Shown piece after piece: positions 17,591 through 21,226 of a stretch of 64,000 bases of DNA. The stretch is from Anaerosomatales bacterium (GTDB lineage: Bacteria > Actinomycetota > Coriobacteriia > Anaerosomatales > Anaerosomataceae): the NCBI GenBank assembly GCA_030019445.1, contig JASEEU010000005.1:62001-126000 (forward strand), in the 5' to 3' direction. Under the pieces are notes generated by a model. The model saw nothing but the letters and a program-made list of their open reading frames with translations. It was not told the DNA's origin and did not search any database. Each line of letters starts with the position of its first letter. Within the stretch, counting starts at the first letter, position 1. The translations under genes were made by a program, and so were the position numbers.

Positions 17591-19582
17591 CTACTTCGCC
17601 TCAGGCGCGGTCTCGAGGATCTTCGCGACGATGGACGGATCGGCCAGCGTCGAGATGTCGCCGAAGGCCTCCATGTCACGTTCGCCCCCAGCGATCTTGC
17701 GCAGGATCCGACGCATGATCTTGCCGGACCGCGTCTTGGGTAGCTCCGGCACGAAGTGGATGAAGTCCGGCTTGGCGATCGGGCCGATCTCCTCACGCAC
17801 GTGGCCGGTCAGGATCTTGCGGAGACTCTCGCCGGCCTCCTGTCCCTGACGGAGGATCACGTATGCATAGATGCCCTCGCCCTTGACCTCGTGGGGATAG
17901 CCGACCACTGCCGCCTCGGCCACGCTCGGATGGCTCACGAGCGCGCTCTCGATCTCGGCGGTGCCCATGCGATGGCCCGACACATTGATGACGTCGTCCA
18001 CCCGTCCGAGCAGCCAGTAGTAGCCGTCGGCGTCCTGGCGAGCGCCGTCACCCGTGAAGTACCTGCCGGGGAACGCCGAGAAGTACACCTCTTTGATGCG
18101 CTGGTTCTCGGGGTCTCCCCACGTCCCGCGCAGCATCCCGGGCCATGGCTTGTTGATGCACAGGCGGCCGCCGCTCCCCTGCGGGGTCGGGCTGCCATCC
18201 TCGTTCAGGATCTCGGGGACGATGCCGAAGAACGGCCGGGTGGCCGAACCGGGCTTCATCGGAGTCGCTCCCGGCAGGTTCGTGATGATGTGCCCACCCG
18301 TCTCCGTCTGCCAGTACGTGTCGACGATCGGCACGTTCTCGTGGCCGATGTTCTTGAAGTACCACATCCACGCTTCGGGGTTGATGGGCTCGCCGACGGT
18401 ACCGAGCACGCGGAGCGTGCTGAGGTCGTACTTCGCCGGCCACTCCTCGCCCGCCTTCATGAGCGCGCGGATCGCCGTCGGCGCCGTGTAGAACTGGTTG
18501 ACGCCGTGCTTCTCCACGATCTCCCAGAAGCGGCCGGCGTCCGGGTAGGTGGGAACACCCTCGAACATGAGCGACGTGGCGCCCACAGCGAGCGGTCCGT
18601 AGACGATGTAGCTGTGCCCGGTGACCCACCCGATGTCGGCGGTGCACCAGTAGACGTCCTCATCGTGGTAGTCGAAGACGTAGCGGAACGTCGCCGCCGT
18701 GTAGAGCAGATAGCCGGCGCTTGTGTGCAACACGCCCTTCGGCTTGCCTGTGGAACCGGAGGTGTAGAGGATGAACAGCGGGTCCTCGGCATCCACCCAC
18801 TCGATGTCGCAGTGACGGCTGATGTCGGCCGCCCGGACTTCCTCGTGGTACCAGAAGTCGCGGTCCGGCTCCATGTCGACGCGCGTGCGGGCGCGAGAGA
18901 CCACGATGACCGACTCGATGGTCGGACACTCGTAGAGCGCGACGTCCGCCTCGGCCTTCAGCGGCACGACTCGTCCGCCGCGCAGACCTTCGTCGGCGGT
19001 GATCAGCATCTTGGCCCCGCAGTCCTGGATGCGGTCGCGCAGAGCCGCCGAGGAGAACCCGGCGAACACGATCGAGTGGATGGCGCCGATGCGCGCGCAG
19101 GCGAGCATGGAGATCGCGAGCTCGGGGATCATCGGCAGATAGATCGCGACCCGGTCGCCCTTCTTCACGCCGTGCTTCTTCAACACGTTCGCGAACTTGC
19201 ACACCTTGTAGTAGAGCGACTGGTAGGTGTACATCTTCGTCCGGCCCTCATCGGACTCCCAGATGAGCGCGGCCTTGTTGCGACGCCACCCCTGCAGGTG
19301 ACGGTCGATGCAGTTGTAGGTCACGTTCAGCTTGCCGCCCTTGAACCACTCGATCCGCGGCTCGTGGAAGTCGTAGTCGAGGACCGTGTCCCACTTCTTG
19401 TGCCAGTGGAGCATCTCCTCGGCCATGTCGCCCCAGAAACCCTCAGGGTCGTCGACCGACCGACGGTACAGCTCCTCGTACTCCTCCATGGTCTGGATGT
19501 GAGCCCGCTCCTTGACCCACTCGGGAGGCTCAACGACCCGGTACTCCTGGGACAGCGATTCGATTGCGTTCGGTTCCGTCAC
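17591..19582 (-). CDS. acs: Acetyl-CoA synthetase, AMP-forming
   Basis: 663-residue ATP + acetate + CoA enzyme. ATP motif [15 protein letters not shown], acetate/CoA-binding core [13 protein letters not shown], hinge region [17 protein letters not shown], and the C-terminal [11 protein letters not shown] holding the catalytic Lys that is acetylated in homologues. GTG 19582 has GGAGG upstream and fits the family's usual length; the ORF extension beyond it is not conserved-looking. It lets the cell activate acetate. About 230 nt upstream lies the divergent candidate RNA gene. Confidence 0.95.
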
Positions 19583-19826
19583 TGCGTCGCCTCCTTCTCT
19601 GTCGATGACAGGTCGTGCGTCGGCGCTGAACGGGATCGCCCGGTCGGCACACCACGCTATGAGGGCGAATAGGACCCCCTGCCACACCATCGTACACGCG
19701 GGAAGCCCCACGGAATGACCCCGCCCCGGCCCGACGGCGGCGAATTCTCGGTGGGCGGTCGGGCCGGCCCGGTCTGCGGCACGCCCCCCGTAGCTCCCCC
19801 CTTTCGGAGCGCATGTAACAACTGTT
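19583..19826. other. Intergenic region between acs and the candidate RNA
   Basis: No supported ORF. It must hold the acs promoter on the minus strand, but I see no convincing -35/-10 pair and no sigma-54 GG-N10-GC element. Confidence 0.4.
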
Positions 19827-19857
19827 GCATAGTCCTGAAAGCAGTAGTAACCTGAAC

Positions 19858-20036
19858 GTCAGCGGTTTCCCTTCCCTGCAGGCAGGCGTGCGGGGGATCC
19901 GTACGCCAGACGAAGGTGGTCCATCGGCGACCGGCATCGCGATGAGTGTCCCGGAAGGGACGAAGCGACCACAGAGACTCAGGGGTACCAGGGAAGGAAT
20001 AGGAACGACCCCGGCCCGAAGGCCGGGGTCGTTTCG
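19858..20036 (+). ncRNA. Candidate structured non-coding RNA
   Basis: About 180 nt with no ORF, folding by perfect complementarity: closing stem CCTTCCCTG (19870-19878) with CAGGGAAGG (19989-19997); hairpin GGCGTGCGG/CCGTACGCC (19885-19907); stem GTGGTC (19916-19921) with GACCAC (19967-19972), enclosing CATCG/CGATG (19922-19944) and GTCCC-GGAA-GGGAC (19948-19961). A 13-bp terminator follows. A -10-like TAACCT lies 17 nt after TTGCAT just upstream. No plus-strand gene follows, so a stand-alone RNA is more likely than a riboswitch. I do not match it to 6S, SRP, tmRNA, RNase P or a riboswitch class. The 5' end is approximate. Confidence 0.5.
20004..20036 (+). terminator. Strong intrinsic terminator
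   Basis: AACGACCCCGGCC-CGAA-GGCCGGGGTCGTT: perfect 13-bp stem and tetraloop, followed by TTTCGCGTTT. It ends the candidate RNA; there is no plus-strand coding gene upstream that needs it. Confidence 0.85.
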
Positions 20037-20085: not shown

Positions 20086-20382
20086 TCAGCCGTGCGCTCG
20101 GACGATGTACCGGGGCCGTACGGTGAGCGGGCCAGCGACCTCGACCAGGCATGCGAGGTGCCATCCCGGCGGGATCCGCACCGGCCGTACGGCCGGTCGC
20201 GTCGGGCCCGGCGCGCCTTCCTCGATCCGCACGATGCACTTCCCGCACGTCCCCTTGCCCCCGCAGGTCGCGTAGATCTCGACACCGGCGATGCGAGCCG
20301 CTTCAAGCACCGTCACGCCGACCGGCACGCTGGCGGCCTCGCCACCGGGCAGGAACGTCACGCGCGCGGTCTCAGACCTCAT
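20086..20382 (-). CDS. Short [2Fe-2S] ferredoxin
   Basis: 98 residues of the adrenodoxin/putidaredoxin-like fold. Cys40, Cys46 and Cys49 (CGGKGTCGKC) with Cys78 (LAC) bind the cluster in the C-x5-C-x2-C-xn-C spacing also found at the N-terminus of corrinoid activator proteins. The region between third and fourth Cys is Pro/Arg-rich (APGPTRPAVRPVRIPPG). ATG 20382 overlaps the end of degV by 11 nt, so it is probably translationally coupled; its own Shine-Dalgarno is weak. No partner enzyme is adjacent. Confidence 0.82.
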   Translation of the reverse strand: MRSETARVTFLPGGEAASVPVGVTVLEAARIAGVEIYATCGGKGTCGKCIVRIEEGAPGPTRPAVRPVRIPPGWHLACLVEVAGPLTVRPRYIVRAHG

Positions 20383-21226
20383 CGGCCGCGACCGGGAGGA
20401 GGGCGACGCCCCACCCCGTGCCGGTGTGCGCGGTGATGGTCGAGCCCGCCTTGATGGTGTGGATCTCCACGATCTCATAGCGGTCCTCGATCTGGCCGCG
20501 CAGCCACTCGGCGCGATCGGGCGCCATCGCATGCAGCACCGCGAATCGACCCTTGCGCTCATCGCCCATCTGGCGCTCGACCCACTCCATCGTCTGGCGC
20601 AGCGCAGCCTGTGCCCCGCGGGCTCGACCGACAGCCTCGAACGTCCCGTCCTTGGCGACCGTGATCATGACTCTCAGGTTGAGCATGCCGCCGAGAAGCG
20701 CCTTCACCTTCCCGATACGGCCTCCACGTGCCAGGTTGTCGAGCGAGTCGAGTCCCACGATCATCTTGACACGGTCACGGGCCCGCTCGACGACCCGCAC
20801 GACGTCAGACGCCGACGCCCCGTTCGCGGCCGCACGTGCGGCCTCGAGCACCTGCAACCCCTCTCCCCAGGAGAGGTTCAGGCTGTCCACCACGTGCACC
20901 CGTCCCTTGAACGACTCGGCGGCCTCACGCGCCGCCTCCACGGTGCCGGACAGTCGCGACGAGATGTGTACCGAGACGACCTCACGGGTCCGTTCCAGCA
21001 GGCGCTCGTACGTCTCGATGAAGAGCCCGACCGGCGGCTGCGACGTGGTGGGCAGCACCGGCTCGGCATCCATTCGCGCGAAGAATTCCTCCTGCGTCAG
21101 CACGCCATCCTGTACGACCTCGTCCCCGAAGATCACCGACAGCGGCACGACGGTCACGCCGTGCGCCTCGGCGACCTCGGGAGGAAGATCCGACGTGCTG
21201 TCTGTGACGACACGAACTGCGTCCAT
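20372..21226 (-). CDS. DegV family fatty-acid-binding protein
   Basis: 284 residues. The N-terminal VVTDSTSDLPPEVAEAHGV is the family signature; TSQPPVGLF, SSRLSGT and LDSLDNLARGGRIGK are the other conserved blocks. DegV (FakB) proteins hold a fatty acid and present it to the kinase FakA for phosphorylation and entry into phospholipid. No fakA is visible here. It is followed by, and overlaps, the ferredoxin gene, and lies 9 nt after the HIT gene. Confidence 0.93.
   Translation of the reverse strand: MDAVRVVTDSTSDLPPEVAEAHGVTVVPLSVIFGDEVVQDGVLTQEEFFARMDAEPVLPTTSQPPVGLFIETYERLLERTREVVSVHISSRLSGTVEAAREAAESFKGRVHVVDSLNLSWGEGLQVLEAARAAANGASASDVVRVVERARDRVKMIVGLDSLDNLARGGRIGKVKALLGGMLNLRVMITVAKDGTFEAVGRARGAQAALRQTMEWVERQMGDERKGRFAVLHAMAPDRAEWLRGQIEDRYEIVEIHTIKAGSTITAHTGTGWGVALLPVAADEV

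Follow-up and report, generated by a model that had tools for sequence, protein, structure and literature searches.

Does an apparently non-coding stretch of an Anaerosomatales genome encode a free-standing regulatory RNA, and does that RNA belong to a known class? The stretch occupies positions 19858-20036 of the window (the whole 64,000-nt piece of DNA analysed here), and we found in its sequence and its fold all five stems (9, 9, 6, 5 and 5 bp) and the 13-bp hairpin that a sequence-only reading had described. On the plus strand, the closing stem P1 (19870-19997) pairs CCUUCCCUG with CAGGGAAGG over 9 bp (19870-19878 with 19989-19997) and is nearly invariant among relatives. The P2 hairpin (19885-19907) pairs GGCGUGCGG with CCGUACGCC over 9 bp including one G-U (19885-19893 with 19899-19907), and the P3 arm (19916-19972) is built on the 6-bp stem GUGGUC/GACCAC (19916-19921 with 19967-19972) and encloses two smaller hairpins. 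These are P3a (19922-19944; 5 bp, CAUCG/CGAUG, 19922-19926 with 19940-19944), which presents the hexaloop CCGGCA at 19931-19936, and P3b (19948-19961; 5 bp, GUCCC/GGGAC, 19948-19952 with 19957-19961). The segment CUCAGGGGUA (19978-19987), kept among relatives, is unpaired in the consensus fold, and the 13-bp terminator hairpin follows at 20004-20033. For all 179 nt the fold has z = -5.6 (equalled by 0 of 200 shuffles), and for the core without the terminator it has z = -2.25 (equalled by 5 of 200). Hence, the whole-sequence value comes largely from the terminator, and single-sequence fold energy is only suggestive.

Homologues of the RNA were found throughout one bacterial order. A 361-base nucleotide search matched 63 of 99 genomes, every one from the same order, and a first covariance model (R1), built from four relatives, found the RNA as a single copy in 64 of 69 Anaerosomatales (OPB41) genomes. 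With E raised to 0.1, this model added one weak match inside the order (E = 0.07) and gave no match outside it in the class sample. The second model (R2), built from all 64 homologues, recovered the same 64, and with it the RNA was found in none of 327 genomes of other orders in the class. A draw of 396 genomes from across the phylum, some of them shared with the class sample, gave only four matches, all known members of the order. The search filters were strict, so diverged relatives could be missed.

We also searched named genomes with a three-part pattern, which fitted 99 stretches; the 80 listed, together with 9 viral stretches, gave 89 loci. The RNA model matches 38 of these listed loci, all of which are Coriobacteriia, Coriobacteriales, Coriobacteriaceae, Anaerosomatales, Slackia or Actinobacteria/Actinomycetes/Actinomycetota by title. 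Streptomyces, proteobacterial and other pattern hits among those listed were taken as chance. A phage origin was rejected, as the nine viral stretches fit the pattern and none matches the RNA model.

Covariation was counted in a model-based alignment of the 64 sequences (62 distinct); MAFFT alignments misregistered P1 and P3 and were left out of the counts. We found that both sides have changed in 30 of the 35 pairs. Paired cells reach 92.3%, compared with 69.5% in shuffles, and pairing falls to only 35-55% when the partner is slid by 1-3 columns. None of 500 shuffles reaches the real alignment on any of five measures. The covarying core, matched by both models, runs from 19867 to 19998 (+). 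Within it P2 (helices 2-4), P3 (helices 5-6), P3a and the variable hairpin P3b (helix 9) covary strongly; P1 (UUCCCUUCCC with GGGAAGG) hardly varies and thus adds little. Fitting the alignment to the structure biases it towards that structure, and the shuffles ignore relatedness; an artefact is nevertheless unlikely because the difference is large and the slid control is low. Hence, the comparative sequence evidence is decisive for the fold: the multi-branch structure is real, its stems other than P1 are kept by compensatory change, a check that the earlier reading had named, and change of this kind beyond the controls marks a conserved structured non-coding RNA.

Upstream of the core, comparison of the loci predicts a promoter at 19825-19853 (+), with a -35 box TTGCAT (19825-19830), a 17-nt spacer and a -10 box TAACCT (19848-19853), and a start at about 19859-19862 (+). 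A stringent sigma-70 scan did not report this promoter, so it stands as a comparative prediction. Together with the terminal hairpin it implies a predicted transcript of about 176 nt (19860-20036, +). The -35 region is overlapped by a palindromic operator, TGTAACAACTGTTGCA (19814-19829, +), whose 3' half contains the -35 hexamer. The palindrome at the RNA promoter reads TGTAACAnnTGTTGCA, and the sole exact match to TGYAACANNTGTTRCA in the window's genome (G000) is this site. Among the 62 RNA promoters that could be counted (two of the 64 loci lie too near a contig end), the palindrome is exact in 30 and carries at most two mismatches in 44; in the other 18 it is degenerate, with at least three. 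About 0.3% of shuffled upstream regions score as well as the RNA promoters for the palindrome, and TAnnnT lies exactly 18 nt past it in 47 of the 62.

Downstream of the core, 63 of 64 loci have a hairpin with a stem of 10 bp or more. The earlier reading had called it a terminator with a T-rich tail. The hairpin is there; the description of the tail was generous for the plus strand, where the window has the weak U-tract UCGCGUUUGG and the 10 nt that follow the stem contain 3.2 T on average over the 64 relatives. The terminator scan called a terminator on the minus strand only, and the conserved hairpin probably also serves the convergent fdx-degV operon, which consists of a 2Fe-2S ferredoxin-like gene (20086-20379, -, PF00111) and a degV-family gene (20372-21226, -, PF02645).

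This arrangement raises the alternative that the fold is no plus-strand RNA and instead forms a structured 3' region of the fdx-degV transcript, which runs on the minus strand. Read on that strand, the hairpin closes with a UUCG loop and is followed by the better of the two tails, and G-U cells (62) barely outnumber A-C cells (49), so the base pairs hardly tell the strand. However, a minus-strand fold would sit beyond the hairpin, past the point where transcription is expected to stop, whereas on the plus strand promoter, fold and hairpin come in that order, with promoter and operator preceding the fold at nearly fixed spacing. We therefore favour the plus strand and consider the 3'-region reading very unlikely. 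A cis-acting leader (riboswitch or attenuator) of a plus-strand gene would also account for an aptamer-like fold followed by a terminator hairpin. Yet the sense gene that a leader needs downstream was not found: in 62 of 64 loci the first open reading frame called on that side runs antisense, which leaves the leader reading highly improbable, indeed nearly refuted. The earlier statement that no plus-strand gene precedes or follows the RNA is right at this locus.

Membership in a known class was not borne out. At the Rfam 15 gathering score the window gives four tRNAs only, and the loci of 14 relatives give no match. With E up to 10, the window locus and one relative gave mostly matches to the terminator hairpin and one weak match over the promoter region. 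ARAGORN likewise reported four tRNAs in the window and no tRNA or tmRNA at the RNA locus. The check set by the sequence-only reading, a 6S, riboswitch or raiA hit, thus returned no Rfam family at this locus. 6S RNA (RF00013) is, as this RNA is, a single-copy, free-standing bacterial RNA of about 160-190 nt, and the similar length is what speaks for a diverged 6S or other known class. In contrast, the true 6S RNA of the same genome is encoded at a separate locus (G000:C11:128139, 57 bits, above the family cut-off), RF00013 does not match the RNA locus, and the sequence differs, as does the covarying multi-branch fold, which is not a single long hairpin with a promoter-like central bubble. We rejected 6S identity, and a diverged form of 6S or of another known class is extremely improbable. 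What stands is the reading of a free-standing regulatory RNA of no known class, supported by the predicted promoter, the covarying fold, the near-constant hairpin, the antisense genes downstream and the Rfam result.

The RNA had also been called an orphan. This holds in that it has no sense gene; it fails in that the locus has a positional tie to acs and an operator in common with hydrogenase and formate-dehydrogenase operons of relatives. The gene acs, for an AMP-forming acetyl-CoA synthetase (17591-19582, -; PF00501, PF13193 and PF16177), is divergent from the RNA in 61 of 61 testable loci; the remaining three stop at a contig edge. On the opposite side the neighbour is usually a ferredoxin-like gene, a degV-family gene or a gene for a larger unnamed protein. 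As for the five genomes without the RNA, the acs of G019 is truncated by the beginning of its contig, and in G051 and G053 the search gave no acs at its E-value cut-off. In G047, an assembly that is 73% complete, no HIT gene was detected, and G037 has an acs fragment directly beside HIT, with RNA and degV gone. Hence, the RNA is strongly linked to acs by position.

Two further observations concern acetyl-CoA synthetase genes. The genome holds a second such gene outside the window (G000:C19:137080-139032, L244; 70% identical), and there is no copy of the RNA within the 5.5 kb fetched around it. In the acs leader (about 19690-19765, -), two tandem GCCGYYnACC repeats about 22 bp apart lie upstream of the acs TAnnAT box. 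They are conserved across the relatives aligned and are likely the binding site of a separate acs regulator.

We found the operator elsewhere in these genomes as well. The exact pattern gives 50 sites in 37 of 69 genomes, of which 31 belong to the RNA promoter and 19 lie at other places; with the pattern reversed as a control, a single site in one genome was found. Eight of the 19 other sites precede a [NiFe]-hydrogenase small subunit (by tblastn, and by Pfam for one), four precede a molybdopterin formate-dehydrogenase-like gene (Pfam supports three; the fourth was judged from sequence), two are upstream of short-chain dehydrogenases and one is upstream of a complex I (NuoB-type) gene. Good -35 and -10 boxes stand directly upstream of the palindrome at five of the eight hydrogenase sites (by script); at the three remaining ones, and at all but one of the four sites of formate-dehydrogenase genes, TTGACn and TAnnnT boxes were seen by eye somewhat further upstream. 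Because the operator lies just downstream of the -10 box at several hydrogenase promoters and overlaps the -35 region here, we infer that it binds a repressor, presumably of a redox type. Class II Crp/Fnr-type activation at the palindrome was dropped, since the hydrogenase sites fall downstream of -10.

The genes downstream of the operator at L312, L314, L317 and L318 encode Tat-signal molybdopterin oxidoreductases. L314 and L318, the two read that far, have an in-frame stop after the motif IEHQAR[VI], as selenocysteine formate dehydrogenases do, which suggests that they are such enzymes. NHL-repeat-like genes ('PPxYLYSxSG') lie across the operator at L264, L268, L275, L312, L314, L317 and L318 and might be under the same operator as the hydrogenase and formate dehydrogenase.

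Rex was weighed as the regulator. Rex operators end in TTGT...ACAA, as does the candidate operator, and the sites near hydrogenase, formate-dehydrogenase and complex I genes also recall Rex regulons; the centre of the half-site, however, departs from the Rex consensus. Rex-type proteins were found in 66 of 69 genomes, most of which have several, and they also accompany degenerate operators; their distribution is thus uninformative, and Rex was not adopted. The window's own genome has three Rex-type DNA-binding proteins (G000:C17:239276, C17:254688 and C18:6540), so that there is no single candidate for the regulator.

What might the RNA do? We put at about even chances the reading that it is a free-standing, single-copy, trans-acting regulatory RNA of the Anaerosomatales, made together with the genes for H2 and formate oxidation. 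A redox-type repressor would occupy the operator at the RNA, hydrogenase and formate-dehydrogenase promoters, and once the H2- and formate-oxidation genes were derepressed, the RNA would be transcribed with them. Acting in trans, it would use the conserved loop and the unpaired segment either to base-pair with target RNAs or to hold a protein, and would thereby adjust carbon and energy metabolism; the activation of acetate by the neighbouring acs is plausibly among the steps affected. Published work (PMC9686372) reports growth on H2 or formate for the first cultured members of the order, together with group 1i hydrogenases, which fits co-production of the RNA with these genes. Several observations weigh against this reading: the operator is degenerate at 18 of 62 RNA promoters, the stringent promoter scan did not report the promoter, the plus-strand tail after the hairpin is weak, G037 has an acs fragment beside HIT but no RNA, and the target searches described below gave no conserved target.

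Conservation is concentrated in the loops and unpaired stretches, and the stems apart from P1 vary freely. The P3a loop CCGGCA is kept in 64 of 64 sequences though its closing pairs change, and CUCAGGGG in the conserved segment is kept in 63 of 64, the exception being G062 with CUCAUGGG. The P2 loop is GGAAU in most relatives (GGGAU in the window) and is lost in some families. In many relatives outside the window's own family, the P3b loop is CCAGGCA and resembles the invariant P3a loop; the two are perhaps sites for one partner. The segment CUCAGGGGUA resembles a tRNA D-arm (compare GCUCAGGGGGAGAGC in the window's tRNA-Val), a likeness that is either chance or a tRNA mimic.

For pairing with an mRNA, we found no conserved perfect 12-nt target: the complement TACCCCTGAGTC of the conserved segment occurs almost only at the RNA itself. 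Duplexes between the RNA and the acs start region reach -58.3 kcal/mol for natural partners vs -57.5 ± 0.4 kcal/mol for swapped ones, a difference that relatedness alone could give. The lack of a conserved long complement elsewhere in the genomes, together with the pattern of conserved loops and freely varying stems (P1 excepted), would suit an RNA that binds or sequesters a protein, with CCGGCA and CUCAGGGGUA docking a regulator or enzyme and titrating it rather than pairing with mRNA. Decoys of the CsrB/RsmZ type carry many motif repeats, whereas here each motif occurs once per RNA, and we regard sequestration as a serious but minority possibility. The self-complementary CCGG within CCGGCA could instead make loop-loop dimers, so that the unit would be an RNA dimer; the loop is invariant while its closing pairs change, but a self-complementary 4-mer is common by chance, and a dimer seems improbable. 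Returning to the trans-acting reading, a bolder form of it would have this order-specific RNA link the sensing of electron donors to carbon flow: one repressor would control both the H2/formate operons and the RNA, and the RNA would retune acetate activation and other metabolism through CCGGCA and CUCAGGGGUA, possibly as a loop-loop dimer. We offer this form as speculation and consider it unlikely.

Among known RNAs there are several points of comparison. RsaE/RoxS and LhrC are C-rich, terminator-ended, trans-acting sRNAs, and the present RNA likewise has its own predicted promoter, a terminal hairpin and a 5' C-rich stretch (UUUCCCUUCCC); here, however, the C-rich stretch supplies the 5' strand of the closing stem in a closed multi-branch fold. 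raiA, OLE, ROOL and GOLLD are ornate orphan RNAs of bacteria, lineage-limited and highly structured, with functions that are unknown or were late to emerge. The Anaerosomatales RNA is similarly lineage-limited, highly structured and free-standing, but it differs in having no Rfam match and in being confined to one order in the searches made. It is also much smaller than OLE, ROOL and GOLLD (PMC12286853). We found no description of the RNA in the openly licensed literature searched, two RNA discovery papers included. Free-standing structured bacterial RNAs are a known kind, and the family appears to be new.

With this finding, a subsurface bacterial order that has few cultured members gains a universal or nearly universal RNA family that is well supported and has no entry in Rfam. 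Through its common operator and its fixed place beside acs, the RNA is tied in testable ways to the metabolism of hydrogen, formate and acetate. If the bolder form of the trans-acting reading is true, the RNA would be a regulator central to the lithotrophic energy metabolism of a mostly uncultured actinobacterial order.
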